Shown piece by piece: positions 22,106 to 59,887 of a DNA stretch of 64,000 nucleotides. The DNA lies in the NCBI RefSeq assembly GCF_018129995.1, contig NZ_JAFCKS010000001.1:186001-250000 (forward strand), given 5' to 3'. Position 1 is the first letter of the stretch; each line of letters begins with the position of its first letter. Made by a program: the position numbers and the translations under genes. This stretch comes from Bradyrhizobium sp. SZCCT0153 (GTDB lineage: Bacteria > Pseudomonadota > Alphaproteobacteria > Rhizobiales > Xanthobacteraceae). Below the pieces are notes generated by a model. The model was not told where the DNA came from. It made no database searches and worked only from the letters and a program-made list of their open reading frames with translations.

Positions 22106-23323
22106 TCAGCTTCGGCGCGCGAATACCAGCTGCCGGACATCGATCTTTCCGGCCCTGAACCCTGCCTCGCAGTAGCACAGATAATATTCCCACAGCCGCC
22201 GGAAGGGCTCGTCAAACCCGAGCGAGGTCAGGTCCGTCCATGCCTGGCCGAAGCTCGTTCGCCAGACCGCGATCGTCTTTGCATAGTCTTGCCCAAAGAC
22301 CTGCTCGCGTACCAAAGGCATTTGCACGCGTTCGCCGAGCGAGCGCAGGACATTCGGCGAAGGCAGCATGCCGCCCGGAAAAATGTATCTCTGGATGAAG
22401 TCCACGCGCCGACGGTAGCTGTCGAAGAGCTCGTCCCGGACGGTGATCGCCTGGATACCGGCAAGACCACCCGGCTTGAGCCGTTGATGCAATTGATTGA
22501 AGTACGTCGGCCAGAATGGCTCGCCGACGGCCTCGATCATCTCGATCGAGGCGATACGGTCGAACTGCCCGTCCTGATCGCGATAATCCTGCAACCGGAC
22601 CTCGACGTTTTCGCCGAGCCCGGCTTCGTGGATTCGTCGGCTCGCGAATGCGTGCTGCTCCTTGCTGATGGTGAGCGCCAATACCTTTGCGCCGCAAGTC
22701 CTGGCGGCATACTCGGCAAAGCCGCCCCAGCCGCAGCCGATCTCGAGTAGGGTATGGCCGGGCCTCAGCTCGATCGCCTTCGCCAGTTGGGCGTATTTGT
22801 GCCGTTGAGCGGCGAGCAGGTCGGTCGTCTCGGGCGAGAACAATGCCGACGAGTAGGTCATGCTGGGATCGAGCCAGGCCGCAAAGAACTCGTTCCCGAG
22901 ATCGTAATGCGCGTGGATGTTCAGCCGCGATCCCTGCCTCGTGTTTCGGCGCAATCGATGAAGCGCCCGCCGGCAAAGCCGGACGAGCGCACTGCCGGCA
23001 AAGGCGTTGTCGACCAGGTCGTCGTTGAGACAGAACACGTAAAGAAGCTGGGATAGATCCGGCGTGCTCCAATCGCCGCGAACGTAAGCCTCGGCCATGC
23101 CGATATCGCCGCCAAGGACCAGACTTCGCGCGAAGGCGTAGCTGTTGATCTCGACGGTCGCCGACGGACCCGGATGCGTTCCTCGCAACGCGACGGTCCT
23201 GCCGTCGGGTAGGCGAACGTCCACGGTGCCAAGCTTGAGCCGCGAAGCAAGCCGCAGGGCGAGCCGCGCGAGGAAGGGAACGTCATCGAAGCGAGCAGTC
23301 TGGTGTGTGGCTGCGAGATCCAT
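22106..23323 (-). CDS. Cyclopropane-fatty-acyl-phospholipid synthase family methyltransferase
   Basis: 405 aa from ATG 23323. SAM motif I LLEIGCGWGGFAEYAA near residue 190, LALTISKEQHAFA, LQDYRDQDGQFDRIASIEMIEAVGEPFW, and the FIQRYIFPGGMLPS segment are all Cfa-family. The Cys of the classic YSCAY motif is Ser (MTYSSALF), so it may methylate rather than cyclopropanate unsaturated phospholipid chains. Third gene of an operon with DUF1365 and an FAD oxidoreductase, four bases after DUF1365, and under a predicted RpoE promoter. In Rhodobacter sphaeroides equivalent RpoE-controlled genes take part in furan fatty acid formation. Confidence 0.9.
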   Translation of the reverse strand: MDLAATHQTARFDDVPFLARLALRLASRLKLGTVDVRLPDGRTVALRGTHPGPSATVEINSYAFARSLVLGGDIGMAEAYVRGDWSTPDLSQLLYVFCLNDDLVDNAFAGSALVRLCRRALHRLRRNTRQGSRLNIHAHYDLGNEFFAAWLDPSMTYSSALFSPETTDLLAAQRHKYAQLAKAIELRPGHTLLEIGCGWGGFAEYAARTCGAKVLALTISKEQHAFASRRIHEAGLGENVEVRLQDYRDQDGQFDRIASIEMIEAVGEPFWPTYFNQLHQRLKPGGLAGIQAITVRDELFDSYRRRVDFIQRYIFPGGMLPSPNVLRSLGERVQMPLVREQVFGQDYAKTIAVWRTSFGQAWTDLTSLGFDEPFRRLWEYYLCYCEAGFRAGKIDVRQLVFARRS

Positions 23324-23327
23324 GGCT

Positions 23328-24116
23328 TCACATCTGGCGTTGGTTCGGACGGGGAACGTAAGGAACATTCTTCAGCCAAAGCCGGATCGCTTCCCAATGA
23401 ATGGCCGCGATGACCTTGAAGGTGACAAAGGGCAGGGTGACGAGCGTCGCCAACAGCGAGCGGCTGGTCAGCGGGCGACGTTGCCCGGAGAATGCAGCCG
23501 CAAATATTGCGCCATGCTCATCGGTCTGCACGATCCTGACCTTCAATTGCCGGTCGGGCGGGGAAATGCTGAAGCGATAACGCGTTTGCATGTCCATGAA
23601 TGGCGAGACGTAGAACTCCTTCGCCTGGCATTGTCGTATGGTACGGCCGGCAGCAGCGTCCTCTACCGGGAGGACGTAGGAATGGATTTCGCCAAAGGTG
23701 TTGCGCACCTCGTAGATCAGCAGCGCAAGATTACCGCAACTTCCATAGCAGAAGTAGATCGAAAGCGGATTGAACACGTAGCCGAAGACCCGCGGATAAC
23801 ATAAAAGGAGGATGCGCCCTCCCGACAGATCGATATCGCGTTGTTCGGCCAGGCTTCGCACATGGTCGCTCAAGGATGCGCCGTTGCGCTTCCCGTGATC
23901 GGACTCGTGAAAGCTGAAGGCTGAGGCGCGATTGACGCCGAACAGGCGAGACTGGCGATCCGCCTCATCGAGCCGGTCGAGGTCGATCAGCAGGTTCATG
24001 ACGCGGTAGGTGAACCTGTGGTGCGCAGGCCGCATTCGCGCGTGCATCACCCTGCCCAGGTAGAGCGCGGCTGCAGATGACGTCGCCGTTCGTTCTGGAG
24101 CGCTCGTTTGCAACAT
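23328..24116 (-). CDS. DUF1365 family protein
   Basis: 262 aa from ATG 24116, four bases after the upstream stop. DUF1365 marks: ALYLGRVMHARMRPAHHRFTYRV near residue 20, LLIDLDRLDEAD, ILLLCYPRVFGYVFNPLSIYFCY near 105, LLIYEVRNTFGEIHSYVLP and KEFYVSPFMDM. Function biochemically unclear; consistently found between an FAD oxidoreductase and a Cfa-type methyltransferase, suggesting a step in modifying membrane fatty acids. Translationally linked to both neighbours. Confidence 0.92.
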   Translation of the reverse strand: MLQTSAPERTATSSAAALYLGRVMHARMRPAHHRFTYRVMNLLIDLDRLDEADRQSRLFGVNRASAFSFHESDHGKRNGASLSDHVRSLAEQRDIDLSGGRILLLCYPRVFGYVFNPLSIYFCYGSCGNLALLIYEVRNTFGEIHSYVLPVEDAAAGRTIRQCQAKEFYVSPFMDMQTRYRFSISPPDRQLKVRIVQTDEHGAIFAAAFSGQRRPLTSRSLLATLVTLPFVTFKVIAAIHWEAIRLWLKNVPYVPRPNQRQM

Positions 24117-24120
24117 CTTT

Positions 24121-25431
24121 CTACTCAGCAGCCTGCGCCAACGCGCCGGATCGTCGCCACGGCACGGCACTGCCGAGTGCCTCGGCGACGGCGATGCCGG
24201 AGCGCAAGCCGTCCTCGTGGAATCCATAGCCGGTCCAGGCGCCGCAGAACCAGGTGCGGCGGTGCCCCTGAATTTCGGGAAGACGCCTCTGCGCGGCGAA
24301 CGCGCCCGCGTCAAATTGTGGATGCGCGAATGTGAACTTGCCGAAAGTGAGATGAGGCGCCGGCTCGCAAGGGGGATTGAGGCTGACGAATAGCGGCTTG
24401 CGGTCGTCGATGCCCTGCAGCCGGTTCATCCAATAGGTGACGGCGACGTCGTTCTGGGCAGGCGCTTCGCGTCGCCAGCGCAGGAAGTTCCAGGATGCCC
24501 ATGCATTGCGGCGTTTCGGCATGAGGTTGAGGTCGCGGTGCAGATAGGCCGTGTTTGGCGCGTACCGGATCGCGCCGAGAATGGATCGCTCGCGCGGGTC
24601 GGCGTCCGACAGCATCGCCAGGGTCTGATCGCTGTGACAAGCCATCACGACGGCATCGTAGGCGTCCTCATTGCCGTGACTGTCGCGGATCGTCACACCG
24701 TGCTCGGTTCGATGGACCGACGTCACGGCACGGCCGAGCCGGATCCAGCCCTTGAAGCTGGCCGTGAGCTTCTCGACATAGCGCCGGCTGCCGCCCTGGA
24801 CGGTACGCCAGCGCGGCCGATCCAGATGCAACAGCCGGTGATTGTCGAAAAAGGCGGTGAAGTTTTCCGCGGGAAAGGAGAGGATGTCGGCCGAGGGCGA
24901 CGACCAGATGGCGGCTCCCATCGGTCCCAGATAATCGCTGAACAAGCGCGGGCTGAATGCTCCCTTGCGCAGATATTCGCCGAGTGTGAGGTTCTGGAGC
25001 CGGCCAGCTCGCAAGTCGGAAACGCTTTCCCTGTTGAAGCGGAGGACCTCGGCCAGCATGCGAAAATACGACGGGGAGAAGAGATTACGCGGCTGAGCGA
25101 ACAGACCGGAGGCGACCTGCAGGAAGGTCTCGCCGCCGCCCCGCCATTCGAATCGGCCATGGTCTGCCGACATCGCGAAGCTCATGCATGTCTCCTCGGT
25201 TTTCACGCCCAGATGCGCGAACAGAGACGTCAGTTCCGGGTAGTTTGGCTCGTTGAACACGATGAAGCCGATGTCGACGTCGATCTGTTCGCCATCGTAG
25301 TCAACGCGCACAGTATGACTGTGTCCGCCCGGTCGCAATTCGCGTTCGTAGACCGTCACGGCATGACGTTCGGACAGGAGCCATGCGGCGGCGTTGCCGG
25401 CAATTCCCGTCCCGATCACCGCCAAACGCAT
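24121..25431 (-). CDS. FAD-dependent oxidoreductase (amine-oxidase-like), first gene of lipid operon
   Basis: 436 aa from ATG 25431, placed so that the FAD motif VIGTGIAGNAAAWLLSE begins at residue 5. VYERELRPGGHSHTV follows, as in phytoene-desaturase/amine-oxidase flavoproteins. Conserved later blocks include FDNHRLLHLDRPRWRTVQGGSRRYV near 205 and a final WFCGAWTGYGFHEDGLRSG. Partners (DUF1365, Cfa family) make a fatty-acyl desaturation or oxidation role likely. A predicted RpoE promoter lies at 25579-25552, leaving a leader of about 110 nt. Confidence 0.9.
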   Translation of the reverse strand: MRLAVIGTGIAGNAAAWLLSERHAVTVYERELRPGGHSHTVRVDYDGEQIDVDIGFIVFNEPNYPELTSLFAHLGVKTEETCMSFAMSADHGRFEWRGGGETFLQVASGLFAQPRNLFSPSYFRMLAEVLRFNRESVSDLRAGRLQNLTLGEYLRKGAFSPRLFSDYLGPMGAAIWSSPSADILSFPAENFTAFFDNHRLLHLDRPRWRTVQGGSRRYVEKLTASFKGWIRLGRAVTSVHRTEHGVTIRDSHGNEDAYDAVVMACHSDQTLAMLSDADPRERSILGAIRYAPNTAYLHRDLNLMPKRRNAWASWNFLRWRREAPAQNDVAVTYWMNRLQGIDDRKPLFVSLNPPCEPAPHLTFGKFTFAHPQFDAGAFAAQRRLPEIQGHRRTWFCGAWTGYGFHEDGLRSGIAVAEALGSAVPWRRSGALAQAAE

Positions 25432-25551: not shown

Positions 25552-25579
25552 GAAACGTCGGCACGGACGGCCTGGATCA
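25552..25579 (-). promoter_or_regulatory. Predicted RpoE promoter of FAD-DUF1365-Cfa operon
   Basis: On the minus strand, -35 TGATCC at 25579-25574 (preceded by GG), 16-nt spacer, -10 CGTTTC at 25557-25552. Spacing and both boxes match three other promoters in the 25-30 kb island. Confidence 0.75.
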
Positions 25580-25662
25580 CCCCCTTTCGTCCGGCGCATG
25601 GCGGGATATGAAACCGGGGCCTGGGGCGGACGTAATGATCAGAGTTTCCTTGCGGTGAGGAC

Positions 25663-26469
25663 ATGGGTTTCCTGCAAATATTGACCATCGCTGGCATCGC
25701 CCTGGCCCTTTCGGTGTTGATGGGGCTGGCCTGGATCGTTCAGCAGCGAACGGGCAACTCCGGGTGGGTCGATACGATCTGGACTTACTCCGTCGGCCTC
25801 GTTGGAGCGGTTGCGGCCCTTTTGCCGCTCGCCGGGGCGCTGCCAGCGCGCCAGATGCTCGTGGGTACACTCGTGCTGCTGTGGTCGGCGAGGCTCGGGA
25901 CGCACATCGCGCGCCGCGCCGCGGCGGGTATCGACGATCCGCGATATGCGAGCTATGCGCAGGAATGGGGCCCACGGGCGCCGCTTCGAATGTTCGCGTT
26001 CCTGCAGTCGCAGGCGTTCGCTTCGGTGCCGCTGCCATTCGCGGTCTTCCTGGCTGCACACGCTCCACGGGCCGACCTGGGAGTTCAGGATTATGCCGGC
26101 GCGGCCATCATGCTGGCGGCGATCGCAGGCGAGGCGGTCGCCGACGAGCAATTGCGGCGCTTCAAGCGCAACAAGGCCAACGCGGGCCTCGTCTGCGATG
26201 CCGGGCTTTGGCGCTGGTCGCGTCACCCGAACTATTTCTTCGAATGGCTCGGATGGCTCGCCTATCCGATCATCGCGCTGTCGCCGGGCTACCCATGGGG
26301 CTGGGCGAGCCTGATCGCGCCGGCGATCATGTACTGGATCCTCGTGCACGTGACCGGAATACCTCCGCTCGAGGTCCAGATGCTTCGATCCCGTGGCCAC
26401 CGGTATCGGGACTATCAGGCACGAACCAGTGCTTTCTTTCCACGACCGCCAGGACCAGCGCCGGAATGA
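25663..26469 (+). CDS. DUF1295 family membrane protein (steroid 5-alpha-reductase-like)
   Basis: 268 aa; GTGAGG five nt ahead of ATG. Multi-span membrane protein with the DUF1295 block WVDTIWTYSVGLVGAVAALL near residue 27, LWSARLGTHIARRAA near 72, and the C-terminal ICMT/5-alpha-reductase-like GLWRWSRHPNYFFEWLGWLAYP near 181. Such enzymes reduce or methylate lipid-like substrates. Divergent from the FAD-DUF1365-Cfa operon; DUF1295 genes often accompany it, but no RpoE-type motif is found on its own strand. Confidence 0.88.
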   Translation: MGFLQILTIAGIALALSVLMGLAWIVQQRTGNSGWVDTIWTYSVGLVGAVAALLPLAGALPARQMLVGTLVLLWSARLGTHIARRAAAGIDDPRYASYAQEWGPRAPLRMFAFLQSQAFASVPLPFAVFLAAHAPRADLGVQDYAGAAIMLAAIAGEAVADEQLRRFKRNKANAGLVCDAGLWRWSRHPNYFFEWLGWLAYPIIALSPGYPWGWASLIAPAIMYWILVHVTGIPPLEVQMLRSRGHRYRDYQARTSAFFPRPPGPAPE

Positions 26470-26545
26470 TCGGACTTCGCGCCATGCGATCCGGCTCGCT
26501 GGGCCCGACAGGCCGCGCGAGCCGCGCGGAACCAGTGTGCAGCGT

Positions 26546-26573
26546 GATCCGGCGAGGGACTTGCGTCGTTTAA
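26546..26573 (+). promoter_or_regulatory. Predicted RpoE promoter of DUF2177-tspO
   Basis: -35 TGATCC at 26546-26551 (preceded by GCG), 16-nt spacer, -10 CGTTTA at 26568-26573. Same boxes and spacing as the rpoE, lipid-operon and second sigma promoters. Transcription would begin near 26580, leaving a leader of about 48 nt. Confidence 0.75.
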
Positions 26574-26594
26574 GCAGGCGTTGCCTTTGTAAAA

Positions 26595-26613
26595 CCGGTT
26601 GCGAAGCAACCGG
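26595..26613 (+). promoter_or_regulatory. Leader hairpin abutting the ribosome site of DUF2177
   Basis: CCGGTTGC (26595-26602), GAA loop, GCAACCGG (26606-26613) form a perfect 8-bp stem. The Shine-Dalgarno AGGGGAG starts at the next base and ATG is at 26628. The hairpin could stabilise the 5' end or modulate initiation. Confidence 0.55.
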
Positions 26614-26627
26614 AGGGGAGACCGGAC

Positions 26628-27029
26628 ATGAGCTTGCTTTTCACATATCTGTCGGTGGCTGTGACCTTCGTTGCGCTCGACATGATCTGGCTCAAGACCA
26701 TGGTCGAGAGACTTTACCGGCCGGTGCTGGGCGACATGTTGCGGTCTGAGCCCGACCTCGCCGCCGCTGCAGTGTTTTATCTGGCCTATCCCGTCGGTTT
26801 GATCTGGTTCGCGGTGCTGCCGGCTCAGCAAGACGGCAGCGCTCTGCGCGCTTTCACGTCCGGCGTGCTGCTGGGTTGCTTTACCTATGCGACTTACGAT
26901 CTGACCAACCAGGCAACGCTGCGGAATTGGTCGACGGGGCTAACTCTTGCGGACGTGTGCTGGGGATCGTTCCTCGCCGGTGTCAGTGCCTGGATCGGAT
27001 TTCTTGTCGCTCAAAGGATGGCGCATTGA
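26628..27029 (+). CDS. DUF2177 family membrane protein
   Basis: 133 aa with four membrane spans. DUF2177 signatures: VALDMIWLKTMVERLYRPVLGDML near residue 16, FYLAYPVGLIWF near 50, GVLLGCFTYATYDLTNQATL near 79 and the DVCWGSFLAGVSAW end. Unknown function; repeatedly seen with RpoE/ChrR-linked lipid genes. Strong ribosome site. Predicted RpoE promoter at 26546-26573. The stop lies just before the tspO start. Confidence 0.92.
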   Translation: MSLLFTYLSVAVTFVALDMIWLKTMVERLYRPVLGDMLRSEPDLAAAAVFYLAYPVGLIWFAVLPAQQDGSALRAFTSGVLLGCFTYATYDLTNQATLRNWSTGLTLADVCWGSFLAGVSAWIGFLVAQRMAH

Positions 27030-27031
27030 CC

Positions 27032-27532
27032 ATGCATGGGGCGCACAACGGGGCGCTGGGGCAAGATGGCGAGCGGAAGCGCGGCAGATGGTCCAGATGC
27101 GCCGCTTTCCTCTGTCTCGTTCCTGCCGCGGGGCTTCTGATCGGTGTGCTCAACCGTCCGGGAGCGTGGTACGCGGCACTCAACAAGCCGTCCTTCAATC
27201 CGCCCGATGCGGTGTTCGCACCCGTCTGGACGATCCTGTTCCTGCTGATCGCCGTGGCGGGATTCCGCACCTTCGAGGCGGAGCCGCGCGGAAAGTCGAT
27301 GAGATTGTGGGGCCTGCAGATGATCCTGAATTTTGCATGGTCTCCCATCTTCTTTTCGCTTCATCGCATGGACGTGGCGCTCGGCGTCATTGTTGCGTTG
27401 CTGGCCGTGATCCTCGCGTTTGTCTGGCGCCGGTGGCAGACCGACCGGTTGGCAGCGATGCTTTTCATTCCCTATGCCGGCTGGGTCGGTTTTGCGACCC
27501 TGCTGAACATGTCGCTGCTCCGCCTCAATTAG
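27032..27532 (+). CDS. tspO: TspO/MBR family protein
   Basis: 166 aa; ATG 2 nt after the DUF2177 stop, so probably translated by coupling since no ribosome site is close. A longer than usual hydrophilic N-terminus (about 20 residues) precedes five membrane spans with GAWYAALNKPSFNPPDAVFAPVWTILF, MILNFAWSPIFF and PYAGWVGFATLLN. TspO binds porphyrins and in Rhodobacter modulates tetrapyrrole-linked, oxygen/light-responsive genes. Placement behind an RpoE promoter fits handling of photosensitising porphyrins (inference). Confidence 0.93.
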   Translation: MHGAHNGALGQDGERKRGRWSRCAAFLCLVPAAGLLIGVLNRPGAWYAALNKPSFNPPDAVFAPVWTILFLLIAVAGFRTFEAEPRGKSMRLWGLQMILNFAWSPIFFSLHRMDVALGVIVALLAVILAFVWRRWQTDRLAAMLFIPYAGWVGFATLLNMSLLRLN

Positions 27533-27589
27533 GGTCGACAGCGCAGAGCTGACTTCATCGGCGTCGAGCAGGCGAGCGTGGTGCCGAAT

Positions 27590-27892
27590 TCAAGGATCCC
27601 TCGGTGCATCGCACCCGTCAAAGGCGTCCCTGGTCTCCGCGATCTTGTCGGACAGCGACGCGAATGCGATCTGGACTCTCCGCTTTCCATCTTCGTCGAG
27701 CACGAGATGCGCGAGGTCGACCAGTCGATCGCCGAGGTGCTCCATGACGCCGAGCAAATGATCGAGGCCTTCCGCGGGCTGATCGGCTGCCAGACGGTCC
27801 ACCTCTCTCACCATCTGCTCGAGCCTCGCAAGAGAGGACACAAGCGGGTCCACATGTCCACGGTTGGGGAATTCGATGATCTCTGCGGCCAC
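27590..27892 (-). CDS. Small helical protein downstream of second ECF sigma factor, unknown
   Basis: 100 aa starting at GTG 27892, with GCGAGGAA about seven bases upstream, 20 bp after the ecf stop. Acidic, mostly helical with Leu/Val heptads (LVSSLARLEQMVREVDRLA and LGDRLVDLAHLVLDEDGK), no cysteines, no membrane span. Not recognised. As the only gene downstream in the same transcript it is a candidate partner or target of the sigma factor, but it has no known anti-sigma fold. Confidence 0.65.
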   Translation of the reverse strand: MAAEIIEFPNRGHVDPLVSSLARLEQMVREVDRLAADQPAEGLDHLLGVMEHLGDRLVDLAHLVLDEDGKRRVQIAFASLSDKIAETRDAFDGCDAPRDP

Positions 27893-27912
27893 GCGCGGGT
27901 TCCTCGCCTGCT

Positions 27913-28497
27913 TCAGGCTGCGGCCGATGCAGCAAGGCAGTCCTTGCGAACCGCCAGGAGAGTTCGGTGCAGCCAGGTCTTGATGGTGCCGACCGGCACC
28001 CCGAAGCGCCTTGACAAGCTCGCGCGGCTTTCGCCCTCGAGGTAGGCCAGAGCCACCAGCCGGCGGCGATCTTCCGGCAGACGAGCCAGCACGCCGCGCG
28101 CGATCGGTTCGGCGCGGGCGTAGTCGAAATCGTCAATCCGGGACGGATCAGCGGTGGCCGGAACCAGAAGTGCCTCGTCCAGCGCGTAAGTCGGTAGTCT
28201 CCTGGTCCGCAGATGGTCGATGGCGGTATTCCGGACGATGGCGGACATCCAGGTCATCGCTGAAGCACGGCTGCTGTCGAACCGACCCGCGTTGCGCCAG
28301 ATCTTCAGATAGGTTTCCTGAAGAATGTCCTCGATGTCGTGGGGCGGAGTTCCGACGGCGAGCGCAGTCCTGCGCAGCTTGCTCCGCGTCAGCATATGCA
28401 GCTCTGCGAAGGCCCGTGCGTCGCCCGCAGAAACGCATGCCAGCAATTCGAGCAATGTTTCGCTCTGCGCCTGTCGTTCCAGGCTTAGGCCGGCCAT
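27913..28497 (-). CDS. ECF RNA polymerase sigma factor (second, orphan)
   Basis: 194 aa from ATG 28497 with GAGGGAG in front. Sigma region 2 in DIEDILQETYLKIWRNAGRFD and MTWMSAIVRNTAIDHLRTRR (about residues 51-95); region 4 in LPEDRRRLVALAYLEGESRASLSRRFGVPVGTIKTWLHRTL (about 136-178). Resembles the SigK/ECF19 type, which normally has an RskA anti-sigma next door; none is present. It follows chrR by 78 bp, with its own RpoE-type promoter at 28550-28523, suggesting an RpoE-to-ECF cascade. Confidence 0.92.
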   Translation of the reverse strand: MAGLSLERQAQSETLLELLACVSAGDARAFAELHMLTRSKLRRTALAVGTPPHDIEDILQETYLKIWRNAGRFDSSRASAMTWMSAIVRNTAIDHLRTRRLPTYALDEALLVPATADPSRIDDFDYARAEPIARGVLARLPEDRRRLVALAYLEGESRASLSRRFGVPVGTIKTWLHRTLLAVRKDCLAASAAA

Positions 28498-28522
28498 GTC
28501 CTGTCTCCCTCGCGTTCCTTTC

Positions 28523-28550
28523 GAAACGCTCCGGGCTCGCCTTCGGATCA
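28523..28550 (-). promoter_or_regulatory. Predicted RpoE promoter of the second ECF sigma gene
   Basis: Minus strand -35 TGATCC at 28550-28545 (preceded by GGG), 16-nt spacer, -10 CGTTTC at 28528-28523. The leader would be only about 20 nt and includes the ribosome site. Confidence 0.75.
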
Positions 28551-28575
28551 CCCGGCGGAAAAGGACGCAAGCGGA

Positions 28576-29223
28576 TCAAAGCCGCACGAATGGCCCGATC
28601 AGTCTGCCGAGCAGGCCGTTCATGCGCAGGTCGCCCGTCATTGCGACGAGGCAAACACAGGGGCCCTCGTCGCCCACGATCGGTCGATGGTCGGTCTCGT
28701 CGTCGCCATAGTCGAAATCACCCGGACCAAACCGGCCGCCTTCGTGGCTGAAGCTGCCCTCGAGCACGAGGGTCAGCTCGGTGCCGGTGTGAGTATGTTC
28801 GAGCATGCGCGTCCCCGGCGCGGACCGAAGCAGAAACGCTCGCGCCTTGCCCGAACCGGACAGCTCGATCGATCGCATGCTCAGACCCGGAGCGACGCGC
28901 CTGCGCTTGCCGATACGGTAGTTCCGCAGCGCCGCCGGAACATCCTGGTCCCTGCCACGAGCGAGATCGGCAGTCCGCGCCGCTCGTTGTTCAGGAGCGT
29001 CGTGAATTCGCGACATCACCTGCTCGAACGCATCCGATGCGACCGGCACCGGCTCGACGTCTTCGAGCGCCAAGCCGCCAAGTTGCTCGATGGCCTGCAC
29101 GAACCGGCCGCACCGTGCACAACCTGCAACATGCACCCCCACCACCAATTGATGGGCCTCTTCCAACCTGCCGGCCGCAAAGTCGGCCAGAAGATCTTCC
29201 GGCGGATGATGGCTGATCGTCAT
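28576..29223 (-). CDS. chrR: ChrR-type zinc-binding cupin anti-sigma factor
   Basis: 215 aa. ATG overlaps the rpoE stop as ATGA. N-terminal anti-sigma domain with zinc ligands H6, H31, C35, C38, the same positions as in Rhodobacter sphaeroides ChrR. C-terminal cupin (about 100-200) has metal residues H143, H145, E149 (EHTHTGTE) and H179, and a CVC pair C189/C191, each two residues shifted from ChrR. ChrR holds RpoE inactive and releases it on singlet oxygen or organic hydroperoxide; the cupin is needed for the response. Confidence 0.95.
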   Translation of the reverse strand: MTISHHPPEDLLADFAAGRLEEAHQLVVGVHVAGCARCGRFVQAIEQLGGLALEDVEPVPVASDAFEQVMSRIHDAPEQRAARTADLARGRDQDVPAALRNYRIGKRRRVAPGLSMRSIELSGSGKARAFLLRSAPGTRMLEHTHTGTELTLVLEGSFSHEGGRFGPGDFDYGDDETDHRPIVGDEGPCVCLVAMTGDLRMNGLLGRLIGPFVRL

Positions 29224-29876
29224 GCTTCTTCGTCCAATATGTCTCTCAGGCGGTTCATCGCCAGTCTGATCCGCGATTTCACCGTTCCGAGCGGAATGCC
29301 GAGCAGGCTCGCGATTTCCGGGTGCGGCCTCTCCTCGATGAACGACAGCCGCACCACCATGGATTGCTCCGTCGAGAGCCGCTTGACGGCCGAATTGATC
29401 CGCGCGGCATCCTGCACGCGGGACATGACGGCATCCGCGGACTCGGCGGGATCCGGCGCATCGGGAAGCTCCGAAGTGCCCCGCAGTCGGTCCGCCCGCG
29501 CTCTGCTGCGGAACAAGTCGATGCGCAAGTTGCGCGCGATGGTGAATATCCATGCCGCGGCCCCTGCCGTCGCAGGATCGAACTGGCTCGCCTTCCGCCA
29601 GACGGCGATCATGGCGTTTTGAGCAATCTCCTCTGCCTCGTCGGAACTGCACCCGCCCTTCAGCATCAACCCCTTGATGCGGGGCGCGAAATGCTCGAAT
29701 AGGCGCCTGAAGGCCTCCCGGTCTCCGGTCGAGGCGACGCGTCCGATCAGATCAGCCCAGTCCACCTTTGTCTTCGGCCCTTTGCTCGCGCCAGTCGACA
29801 GCCGCGCTTCAATCCTCCAGGGAAAACCAGCTTTCGCCCGGATTGGCGCATCTAAAGCTCGGATAGCAGCGATCAT
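29220..29876 (-). CDS. rpoE: ECF sigma factor RpoE (singlet-oxygen response type)
   Basis: 218 aa from ATG 29876, with GAGG five bases upstream; a longer basic N-terminus than usual precedes the domain start at VDWADLIGRVASTGDREAF near residue 38. Region 2 in DEAEEIAQNAMIAVWRKASQFDP and AAAWIFTIARNLRIDLFRSR; region 4 in LSTEQSMVVRLSFIEERPHPEIASLLGIPLGTVKSRIRLAM. Encoded in one transcript with chrR (ATGA overlap) and preceded by its own motif-type promoter, so it is autoregulated. Confidence 0.95.
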   Translation of the reverse strand: MIAAIRALDAPIRAKAGFPWRIEARLSTGASKGPKTKVDWADLIGRVASTGDREAFRRLFEHFAPRIKGLMLKGGCSSDEAEEIAQNAMIAVWRKASQFDPATAGAAAWIFTIARNLRIDLFRSRARADRLRGTSELPDAPDPAESADAVMSRVQDAARINSAVKRLSTEQSMVVRLSFIEERPHPEIASLLGIPLGTVKSRIRLAMNRLRDILDEEA

Positions 29877-29905
29877 AGCGCCTCGACAAGCGACCTCTGG
29901 GTCTG

Positions 29906-29933
29906 GGAACGAACGAGGGCAGGCGCTGGATCA
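29906..29933 (-). promoter_or_regulatory. Predicted autoregulated RpoE promoter of rpoE-chrR
   Basis: Minus strand -35 TGATCC at 29933-29928 (preceded by CGG), 16-nt spacer, -10 CGTTCC at 29911-29906; ATG at 29876. The GTGATCCAG core is identical to that of the lipid operon promoter. Confidence 0.72.
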
Positions 29934-30011
29934 CCGCGGAATGCTCATCGTGACATTTTCCTGAGCCTGTCGCCGGGCGGGTCCGGCCGACCGCGCCGTC
30001 ATCCCCGCGCC

Positions 30012-31154
30012 TCACACCGGGAACGTCAGCGATTTCGCGAGCCTGACCAGGTCGACCTGGCGCCTGCAACCCGTTTTTTCGAAGACGTGAACGAGGTGGC
30101 TCTTCACGGTGCTGACGGACACGCCGAGCAATGCCGAGATCGCGTCGCGGGTGTGCCCATCGCAGATTAGCTCGAAGATGCGAATCTCGGCCGGCGTCAG
30201 GTCATAGAGTTGGTTGAGCGCATCGTGAGGCAGTCGCGGCGGGCCCGCGGCTGACGTCACGAACAGGGCGGCGGCGGCGCGCTGGACCAGACCGGATCGC
30301 ATCTGGCTGCGCCGCAGCGGCAGAACGTGGACGACGAGAGGGTAGGCGCCCTGGCGAGGGATCGGAATGCCGATGCCTTTCTGGCCGAGCGTCGCCTCGT
30401 CTTTTGCGGCCTGGGCGACGGCCGACTGCAATGTGGCGGTGGTCGCCGCCGATTGAACGGCGATGCGGCCATGCCTTGCCACGATCGGATCGCCGGCCGC
30501 GAGCATCGCGGTGGCCGCGGCGTTGGCGTGAACGATGTTCGAATCCTCGTCGGCCAGGACGACGCCGACCGTCAGCGCCTCCACCGTGGCGGCGAATGTG
30601 GTGGCTTCGACCGCCTTCATGTCGAACAGGTTGCTGATCGTCACGGCACGGCGGATGTGAGGTGCGAGCAGGCGCAATCCATTGAGCTGCGCTTCGTCGA
30701 TGGTGCCGGCCGATTCGTGCTGGCTGAAGATCGCATTTCCGACCATCGTCCTGTCGCGAACGAGGCCGACGGCCACGGCGTCGAACAAGCCCTTGGGCAT
30801 GGCCCATTCGCGATAATAGCGGTTGCCGGCAATGATGTCCTGCCGAACGGCCTGGGATTGAACGATGGGTTCTCCGAGCGGATATTGTTGAATGCGCTCG
30901 GCGCCGCCCCAGAGCTCGATGATGTCGGCCCCATAGCCGATGCCGTTCTGTGCCATCTCGGCCAGATCGGACCCGGAGACCGCATTGACGACGGCCTTCA
31001 TGTTGGTGAGGCTGGCGACCGAGAGCGCGCCGGTGGCAAAGCCGAACTCTGCGCAAATCCCGTCCAGAACTCCGGTCCAGCGTTCAGGCGCGATCACGCA
31101 ATCATAGATACCGCCGATGAGGTCCGAGAACTTCTCGACCGAAGCCTGCTGCAT
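30012..31154 (-). CDS. LuxR family transcriptional regulator
   Basis: 380 aa. C-terminal LuxR/FixJ HTH (about 317-378): LTPAEIRIFELICDGHTRDAISALLGVSVSTVKSHLVHVFEKTGC. Upstream is a PAS-like sensory region (ALTVGVVLADEDSNIVHANAAATAML near residue 190) and an N-terminal helical/GAF-like part starting FSDLIGGIYDCVIAPERW, an arrangement common in Bradyrhizobium regulators of unknown signal. Ends 79 bp before the rpoE promoter and has the same orientation; no evidence that it controls the island. Confidence 0.9.
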   Translation of the reverse strand: MQQASVEKFSDLIGGIYDCVIAPERWTGVLDGICAEFGFATGALSVASLTNMKAVVNAVSGSDLAEMAQNGIGYGADIIELWGGAERIQQYPLGEPIVQSQAVRQDIIAGNRYYREWAMPKGLFDAVAVGLVRDRTMVGNAIFSQHESAGTIDEAQLNGLRLLAPHIRRAVTISNLFDMKAVEATTFAATVEALTVGVVLADEDSNIVHANAAATAMLAAGDPIVARHGRIAVQSAATTATLQSAVAQAAKDEATLGQKGIGIPIPRQGAYPLVVHVLPLRRSQMRSGLVQRAAAALFVTSAAGPPRLPHDALNQLYDLTPAEIRIFELICDGHTRDAISALLGVSVSTVKSHLVHVFEKTGCRRQVDLVRLAKSLTFPV

Positions 31155-58903: not shown

Positions 58904-59887
58904 ATGGCGGTCTACACCGACGTTGCCGCCGACGAACTTGCGGACTTTCTGAAACAATACGATCTCGGCGAATTGCTCTCCTACAAGGGCATCGCCGAGG
59001 GTGTCGAAAATTCCAACTTCCTGCTGCATACGACCAAGGGGTCGTTCATCCTCACGCTCTATGAGAAGCGCGTGGCGAAGAACGATCTGCCGTTCTTCCT
59101 CGCGCTGATGACGCATCTGGCCGAGCACGGCGTCAACTGCCCGCTGCCGGTGAAAGGAACAGACGGCGAGGCGCTGCGCGAGCTGTCGGGCCGGCCGGCC
59201 GCGATCATCACGTTTCTCGAAGGCGTCTGGCCGCGCAAGCCGAACGCCGCCCATTGCGCCGGCGTCGGCGAGGGGCTCGCCAGGATGCATCTGGCCGGCG
59301 CCAATTTCGCGATCGAGCGGGCGAACGCGCTGTCGGTCTCGGGCTGGCGGCCGCTGTTCGATACGGCGTCGCCCCGGGCCGACGAGGTTCAGCCGGGTCT
59401 GCGCGCGTTTCTTGCGGCCGAGCTCGACTATCTCGCGAGCGGAATCTGGCCGACCGATCTGCCGGAGGGCGTGATCCACGCCGACCTCTTCAACGACAAC
59501 GTCTTTTTCCTTGGCGACAAGCTCTCGGGGATCATCGACTTCACCTTCGCCTGCAACGACATGCTGGCCTATGACGTCGCGATCTGCCTCAACGCCTGGT
59601 GCTTCGAGCCGGATCACTCCTTCAATGTCACCAAGGCGCGCGCCTTCCTCAACGCCTATGGCCGGGTGCGCAAGCTCTCGGAGGCGGAAGAGGCCGCGCT
59701 GCCGCTGCTGGCGCGCGGCGCCGCGATCCGCTTCCTGCTGACGCGGTTGGTCGATTGGCTCAACGTGCCGCCCGGCGCGCTGGTTCGCCCGAAGGATCCG
59801 CTGGAATATTTTCGCAAGCTGCGTTTCCACCAGAGCGTTTCGAGCGTGCGCGACTACGGGCTGATGCCGTCAGGACTGGTCGCGTGA
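58904..59887 (+). CDS. thrB: Homoserine kinase (ThrB type II, aminoglycoside-phosphotransferase fold)
   Basis: 327 aa, 6 nt after ispH. Phosphorylates homoserine in threonine synthesis. [29 protein letters not shown] near residue 28, catalytic [13 protein letters not shown] near 187 and metal-binding [23 protein letters not shown] near 208 fit the APH-like homoserine kinases. Stop overlaps the rnhA GTG as GTGA. Confidence 0.96.

Follow-up and report, generated by a model that had tools for sequence, protein, structure and literature searches.

We analysed a stretch of 64,000 nucleotides from Bradyrhizobium sp. SZCCT0153 (contig NZ_JAFCKS010000001.1, positions 186,001 to 250,000; hereafter the window, with all coordinates counted from its first letter). 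It carries, at 22.1-29.9 kb, an island around the genes for the extracytoplasmic function (ECF) σ factor RpoE and the anti-σ factor ChrR. Four conserved sites of this island, each of the form TGATCC-N16-CGTT, are predicted to act as promoters of the island's own RpoE, and residue Thr103 of this protein is likely to read the T that takes the place of the usual A of CGTA. While the system itself, RpoE-ChrR of group ECF11, is already known, the -10 element outside the genus is CGTA in most RpoE systems, and CGTT is a departure from it. An earlier note on this DNA had described the four sites but noticed neither the T in place of A at the fourth position of the -10 element nor the link of this departure to a residue of RpoE. 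The open-access literature searched gave us no mention of CGTT as a -10 element for ECF11 or of its tie to the loop, termed L3, in which this residue lies.

A pattern scan recovered all four sites as they had been described, each consisting of a G followed by TGATCC, a spacer of 16 nt and CGTT. The site in front of rpoE-chrR (29908-29934, minus strand; 29908-29933 without the leading G) ends 31 nt before the rpoE ATG, and that in front of sig2-orf100, where sig2 encodes a second ECF σ factor, ends 27 nt before the chosen ATG (28525-28551, minus strand; 28525-28550 without the G). The third precedes an operon for a flavin adenine dinucleotide (FAD)-dependent protein, a DUF1365 protein and a Cfa-like methyltransferase by 122 nt, measured to the chosen ATG (25554-25580, minus strand; 25554-25579 without the G), and the fourth lies 57 nt before the ATG of DUF2177-tspO (26544-26570, plus strand). 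The earlier note had placed the plus-strand site one position off; without its leading G it spans 26545-26570. Furthermore, three sites point left and one right, not two and one as had been stated. Nor is the combination confined to these four GTGATCC sites in the window: a fifth exact match at 59591-59617 (minus strand) was taken as a chance occurrence, because it is located, in antisense orientation, within a gene for homoserine kinase (58904-59887, plus strand).

Allowing spacers of 15 to 19 nt, TGATCC and CGTT were combined five times in the window against an expectation of 0.58, and none of 100 shuffles reached five. In the whole genome of 7.4 Mb, GTGATCC-N16-CGTT occurs 10 times, and 4 of these 10 matches are found in a 4.4-kb part of the island. 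As a chance control we used other spacer lengths, since reversing the pattern was not considered a fair control, probably owing to the rarity of CTAG-like words. Spacers of 4 to 30 nt together gave 136 matches genome-wide, so that each of the 26 lengths other than 16 nt contributes about 4.8 on average; the 6 matches outside the island sites correspond to this background level. Exact-motif counts per genome, compared by eye, showed no clear split between genomes with rpoE and other genomes; nearly all have several matches.

On sequence grounds, the decisive test that the sites exceed chance is the comparison across genomes, which is far stronger than any count in the window. Scanning related genomes for the two-box pattern, as had been proposed, bore the sites out: they were present in 56 of 56 cases in 14 close relatives, each of the four in 14/14. 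Compared with the window, the boxes are 98-100% identical, the spacers 46-64% and the flanks 32-67%; the box identity, unlike the count of 56, is partly by construction, since the relatives' sites were located by TGATC[CT]-N16-CGTT. More widely, TGATC[CT]-N16-CGT[TA] was found in 279 of 311 distinct regions upstream of rpoE, sig2, FAD, DUF2177 and tspO genes, while spacers of 10-15 and 17-23 nt gave 0-9 matches each in the same regions. We then considered the 65 loci, out of 109 distinct ones drawn from 134, in which the specificity loop of RpoE contains Thr/Ser-x-Gly (hereafter TSxG). Here, the motif precedes the head genes rpoE (65/66), sig2 (42/42), FAD (37/37), DUF2177 (31/40) and tspO (14/20). 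It was not found before the internal genes chrR (0/65), DUF1365 (0/36), cfa (0/36) and orf100 (0/18), and before DUF1295 only once in 37 copies. Therefore, the boxes mark operon starts.

The identity of the σ factor supports the earlier proposal that the sites are RpoE promoters of the Rhodobacter type. The product of rpoE (29220-29876, minus strand; Pfam Sigma70_r2 and r4_2) matches Rhodobacter RpoE (PDB 2q1z_A) over residues 36-212 with an E value of 7.9e-40. Its closest named relatives, among the best 80 of 552 named stretches, are from Bradyrhizobium strains (94% and 93% identity). The chrR gene (28576-29223, minus strand) encodes an anti-σ factor that exceeds the cut-off of TIGR02451 (179.2 bits versus 124.5) and stays below that of the narrower NF051881 (186.6 versus 300). 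By eye, its translation contains the zinc-binding HxxxCxxC motif as well as the His/Glu ligands of the cupin domain (Cupin_7, E 2e-13), the latter as named in the available part of PMC6852236. The hallmarks of ECF11 promoters, a TGATCC -35 element and a 16-nt spacer, are found at the island sites. The usual CGTA, a property of the promoter and not of the protein family, is replaced by CGTT at all four. According to the accessible portions of the respective papers, RpoE/ChrR promoters of Pseudomonas syringae mapped by chromatin immunoprecipitation sequencing (ChIP-seq) read TGATCC-N16-CGTA (PMC5507510), and in Shewanella the mapped starts of two genes with RpoE/ChrR promoters lie downstream of TGATCC and CGTA (PMC4336711). 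We infer from these matches that RpoE recognizes the four sites.

To place the CGTT element, we compared rpoE promoters at 110 loci from a class sample (151 ChrR-bearing genomes), 70 from a family sample (100 genomes) and 24 new ones from a phylum sample (107 genomes), together with the best 80 of the 552 named stretches and 35 of 41 rpoE matches of the genus, which were read as long regions. Loci with no rpoE hit were left out (14/110 of the class and 5/70 of the family loci). A promoter match was obtained for 83 of 96 rpoE loci of the class sample; 82 had CGTA (79 with a spacer of 16 nt) and one was scored as CGTC (L244). CGTA was likewise found in 22 of 23 cases of the phylum sample, the remaining one being a weak match, and the family sample outside the genus gave 51 CGTA, 5 CGTT and 1 CGTG. 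The genus regions contained 35 CGTT and 1 CGTA.

In the RpoE alignment, this difference coincides with a difference in the loop preceding region 2.4: FDP-x-[Thr/Ser]-x-Gly goes with CGTT, and Arg, Lys or Gln (rarely Leu, Cys, Met or Tyr) goes with CGTA. The loop of the island's RpoE reads FDPATAGAAAW (residues 99-109; codons at 29550-29582, minus strand), with Thr103 encoded at 29568-29570 (minus strand). Where the last 150 residues of several RpoEs were identical, only one was included in the counts; for 43 of the 270 distinct proteins, the upstream stretch searched contained no TGAT[CT][CT]-N16-CGT. Among 228 distinct RpoEs with a promoter, TSxG loops were paired with 67 CGTT and 1 CGTA, other loops with 3 CGTT and 157 CGTA. 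The same division was seen at the sites before all head genes of the 109 distinct loci (TSxG: 190 CGTT, 6 CGTA, 1 CGTG and 1 CGTC; others: 81 CGTA and 6 CGTT). In a scan of 173 aligned columns, residue 103 predicted the base with the fewest errors at three levels of redundancy (7/228 against a baseline of 70, 6/154 against 31 and 8/104 against 15). The second-best column was well behind at the first two levels and had 11 errors, against 8 for residue 103, at the third. An AlphaFold2 model places residue 103 in a loop (residues 99-105) between two helices, with a mean predicted local distance difference test score (pLDDT) of 79, and of 95 and 92 in the two blocks.

Published structures offer a rationale for this pairing. 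The -10 element of Mycobacterium tuberculosis SigH reads GTT; its third base (T-9) flips out into the specificity loop, where the side chains of T76 and N77 bond it between F72 and W81, according to the part of PMC6411747 available. RpoE residues F99, T103 and W109 correspond to SigH F72, T76 and W81 by the Phe anchor, T103 being F99+4 and T76 being F72+4. At the position matching T103, Rhodobacter RpoE (2q1z) has an Arg. More generally, loop L3 is regarded as a modular reader of the flipped-out base, and swapping L3 between different ECF factors swaps the base (work of Campagne as recounted in the accessible parts of PMC8103513 and PMC6372665). The natural switch would thus use a known reading head, and observing the change inside one family together with its regulon appears to be new.

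Further loci suggest how such a change might have proceeded. Three loci of other genera combine a TSxG loop with mixed sites: CGTA before FAD and rpoE and CGTT before folE in L349, CGTA before FAD and folE and CGTT before rpoE in L353, and CGTA before FAD and CGTT before folE and rpoE in L355. This mixture is what a permissive intermediate would leave. Two genomes contain both types of system. In G743, a locus with an Arg loop (L356) has CGTA before 3/3 heads and one with a Ser-x-Gly loop (L357) has CGTT before 3/3 heads; in G034, L358 has CGTT before 3/3 heads and L359, with a Lys loop, has CGTA at 3/3 locus sites, one of them before folE. In the taxonomically distant Acetobacteraceae, L428, L450 and L437 (Neoroseomonas lacus) pair T-x-G with CGTT at 2/2 sites each, and L431, from a metagenome-assembled genome of this family, pairs R-x-G with CGTA at 2/2 sites. 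Two copies of rpoE-chrR are present in G035 and likewise in G060 (L088 and L100, L096 and L099), all with TSxG and CGTT, and cross-talk is therefore predicted in these two genomes. The wider proposal, which we consider about evenly balanced between right and wrong, is that a change of Arg/Lys/Gln103 to Thr/Ser (with Gly105) in L3 recoded the -10 base from A to T across the whole RpoE regulon. It would have happened at least twice, in Bradyrhizobium and its kin and in Acetobacteraceae, by way of σ factors accepting both bases. Where both types share a cell, a single base would insulate two ChrR-RpoE channels that have the same -35 element and spacer.

Several observations weigh against a role of residue 103 in the choice of base. 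The Aquabacter loci L350 and L464 (counted as one genome) have Arg-x-Gly and yet CGTT at 2/2 sites, and L442 (Hyphomicrobium) has Gly103 and CGTT at 3/3. With a Lys loop, L430 has CGTT before rpoE and CGTA before FAD, and L371 has a CGTT match by a weak -35 element. The Ser-x-Gly locus L349 has CGTA at both rpoE and FAD, and Thr/Ser pairs with CGTA where Gly105 is missing (L351/L429, L390 and L391). Position 108 (Ala/Thr) likewise tracks the -10 base. Between F and W, RpoE has one loop residue more than SigH, and the residues are therefore matched by the Phe anchor. Finally, the RpoE tree contains 9 base changes and 5 loop changes, with only 1 independent pair on supported branches. Of 200 random pairings on this tree, 130 had the loop changing the same way, 69 showed no difference and 1 went the opposite way. 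Because there is only one supported independent pair, the loop-base association cannot be regarded as significant once kinship is corrected for.

These points bear most directly on the explanation that the sites are RpoE promoters whose -10 base and loop residue merely share ancestry, the T being due to a different part of RpoE or to drift within a small number of lineages. The small number of independent transitions and the exceptions L350, L430, L442 and L349 speak for it. On the other hand, residue 103 outdoes the other 172 columns at all three redundancy levels, the pairing of TSxG with CGTT recurs in Acetobacteraceae, and the published structure and loop swaps, as far as the available parts of these papers go, put this very loop on this very base. 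We therefore regard shared ancestry as rather unlikely, though it is the most serious competitor of a reading of T by Thr103.

It is also conceivable that sig2, alone or together with RpoE, reads the CGTT sites, since it lies within the island and carries such a site itself. In addition, its distribution follows that of rpoE: 38 of 117 genus genomes have rpoE (E 1e-30 or better), and full-length sig2 relatives (at least 52% identity) occur in 27 of the 117, all of them among these 38. But a sig2 fragment (73% identity over residues 7-105) is present in G033, a genome with no rpoE hit. Moreover, CGTT sites are retained upstream of rpoE, FAD and DUF2177 in seven islands whose genomes have no full-length sig2 relative (L101-L104, L106, L107 and L358; G100, among these genomes, has a completeness of only 67%). 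Therefore, RpoE and not sig2 is the likely reader. RpoE-ChrR systems elsewhere share the -35 element and the spacer, and the sig2 loop, FDSSRASAMTW, is an Arg loop, making a reading by sig2 improbable. Still less probable, to the point of being hardly credible, is an operator for a repressor or activator instead of a σ promoter. We found nothing specific in its favour; neither box is the inverted repeat of the other, so that a dimer operator is not suggested, the 16-nt spacing is fixed with the sites directed towards the operon head, and the arrangement agrees with the P. syringae RpoE/ChrR promoters from ChIP-seq, as given in the accessible part of that work.

With RpoE as the reader, the following mechanism can be proposed. 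ChrR would hold RpoE inactive until photo-oxidative or hydroperoxide stress at the membrane, as in Rhodobacter. The freed σ factor would then transcribe its own operon along with DUF2177-tspO, the FAD-DUF1365-Cfa operon for lipid modification and sig2, the latter opening a second, RpoE-dependent tier. At these promoters, the fourth -10 base would be flipped out and held in the pocket of loop L3; judging from published ECF structures, Arg/Lys/Gln at position 103 would go with A, and Thr/Ser at 103 with Gly105 would go with T. The base used throughout the regulon would have changed in step with the loop, and some genera still have a mixture of the two bases. sig2 is thus likely a target of RpoE in an ECF-to-ECF cascade.

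The sig2 gene (27913-28497, minus strand) encodes a predicted RpoE target with Pfam Sigma70_r2/r4_2 domains and a TIGR02937 score above the cut-off. It falls short of the SigK-type ECF factors (NF007228, 91.6 bits versus a cut-off of 226). No anti-σ gene was recognized next to sig2 in the island. Downstream of it, orf100 (27590-27892, minus strand) encodes a conserved 100-aa protein with no family match, present in 18 distinct TSxG loci; standing beside sig2 in these 18 loci, it is a candidate partner or anti-σ factor of sig2. We also considered whether sig2 is EcfQ of ECF33, which was rejected as the EcfQ promoter differs (PMC3420878, available part).

The third leftward operon, besides rpoE-chrR and sig2-orf100, comprises the genes for the FAD-dependent amine-oxidase-like protein (24121-25431; Pfam PF01593), the DUF1365 protein (23328-24116; PF07103) and the cyclopropane-fatty-acid-synthase-like methyltransferase Cfa (22106-23323; PF02353, under the NCBIfam equivalog cut-offs), all on the minus strand. 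Rightward are the genes for a DUF1295 protein (25663-26469; PF06966), a DUF2177 membrane protein (26628-27029; PF09945) and TspO (27032-27532; PF03073), all on the plus strand. The DUF1295 gene has no site of its own in this island. In the distant islands L101-L107 it is located downstream of chrR on the same strand, and the island of the close relative L069 shows no DUF1295 gene, yet keeps all four sites. Directly upstream of rpoE lies a gene for a LuxR-type regulator (30012-31154, minus strand), which among the regions of the 14 close relatives was found only in L070 and L074.

Beyond the island sites and the homoserine kinase gene, the exact matches of the genome are located in an integrase-like gene (contig C19), at a position with no clear gene (C17), before an AraC-type gene and overlapping the end of a LuxR-type gene (C12:1153155), before folE, and 33 nt upstream of the coding sequence of a 110-aa protein (C12:454778-455107), whose similarity to DUF3291 stays below the cut-off. 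The last gene occurs in 12 of 117 genomes, 11 of which have rpoE. Eight orthologs (at least 60% identity, own genome included) were compared: the exact motif lies 27-33 nt ahead of five of them, the other three have, by eye, CGTT with an altered -35 element, and for 5/8 an rpoE gene is no more than about 2.5 kb away. The motif was found before 0/5 of the more distant copies. Sequence evidence thus supports this gene as a real off-island member of the motif set. folE, with its match 106 nt upstream, was rejected as a regulon member in the window's genome: among the best 30 folE loci of 115 genomes with a match, the exact motif precedes 9/14 copies from rpoE-bearing and 5/16 from rpoE-less genomes, which is not clearly linked to rpoE. 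Other folE copies within rpoE islands carry the motif (7/7 in one locus set; 6/13 folE matches in distinct TSxG loci). In or beside the islands L349, L352, L353, L354, L355, L359 and L367, which come from several genera as well as the Bradyrhizobium-type genomes G034 and G774, each folE has its own TGATCC-N16-CGTT or CGTA.

The RpoE-ChrR (ECF11) systems of Rhodobacter sphaeroides, P. syringae (PSPTO_1043) and Shewanella (RpoE2) resemble the island in the adjacent genes for the σ factor and a ChrR-type anti-σ factor, the TGATCC -35 element, the 16-nt spacer, a site before the σ gene and Cfa-type genes among the published targets. Compared to such systems elsewhere, the island differs in CGTT instead of CGTA and in Thr103 instead of Arg (2q1z), and has, in addition, the same motif in front of a second ECF σ gene and of DUF2177-tspO. 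Mycobacterial SigH shares the Thr at the matching loop position and the T as flipped-out base (PMC6411747, available part), but its loop is one residue shorter and it is not part of an RpoE-ChrR system; the comparison covered the -10 element and the loop. EcfQ (ECF33) of Bradyrhizobium japonicum is like sig2 in lacking an anti-σ gene, in its oxidative-stress setting and in its genus, but its promoter has GCAGAC/TAACAAT and GAAAC boxes; according to the accessible part of PMC3420878, neither EcfQ nor EcfF of this species has the TGATCC-CGTT motif.

Exchanges of L3 among different ECF factors had already shown that this loop decides on the flipped-out base (PMC8103513 and PMC6372665, accessible parts). 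Here, the change is visible within one family, in which CGTA, mixed and CGTT regulons are all extant and both types occur in single genomes. A code-changing residue, a permissive intermediate and the separation of two paralogous stress pathways by one base thereby become testable. In practice, a promoter scan based on CGTA would overlook the RpoE-ChrR regulon in these rhizobia. The pairing of base and loop likely shows how the code can change jointly in a σ factor and in the genes it controls.

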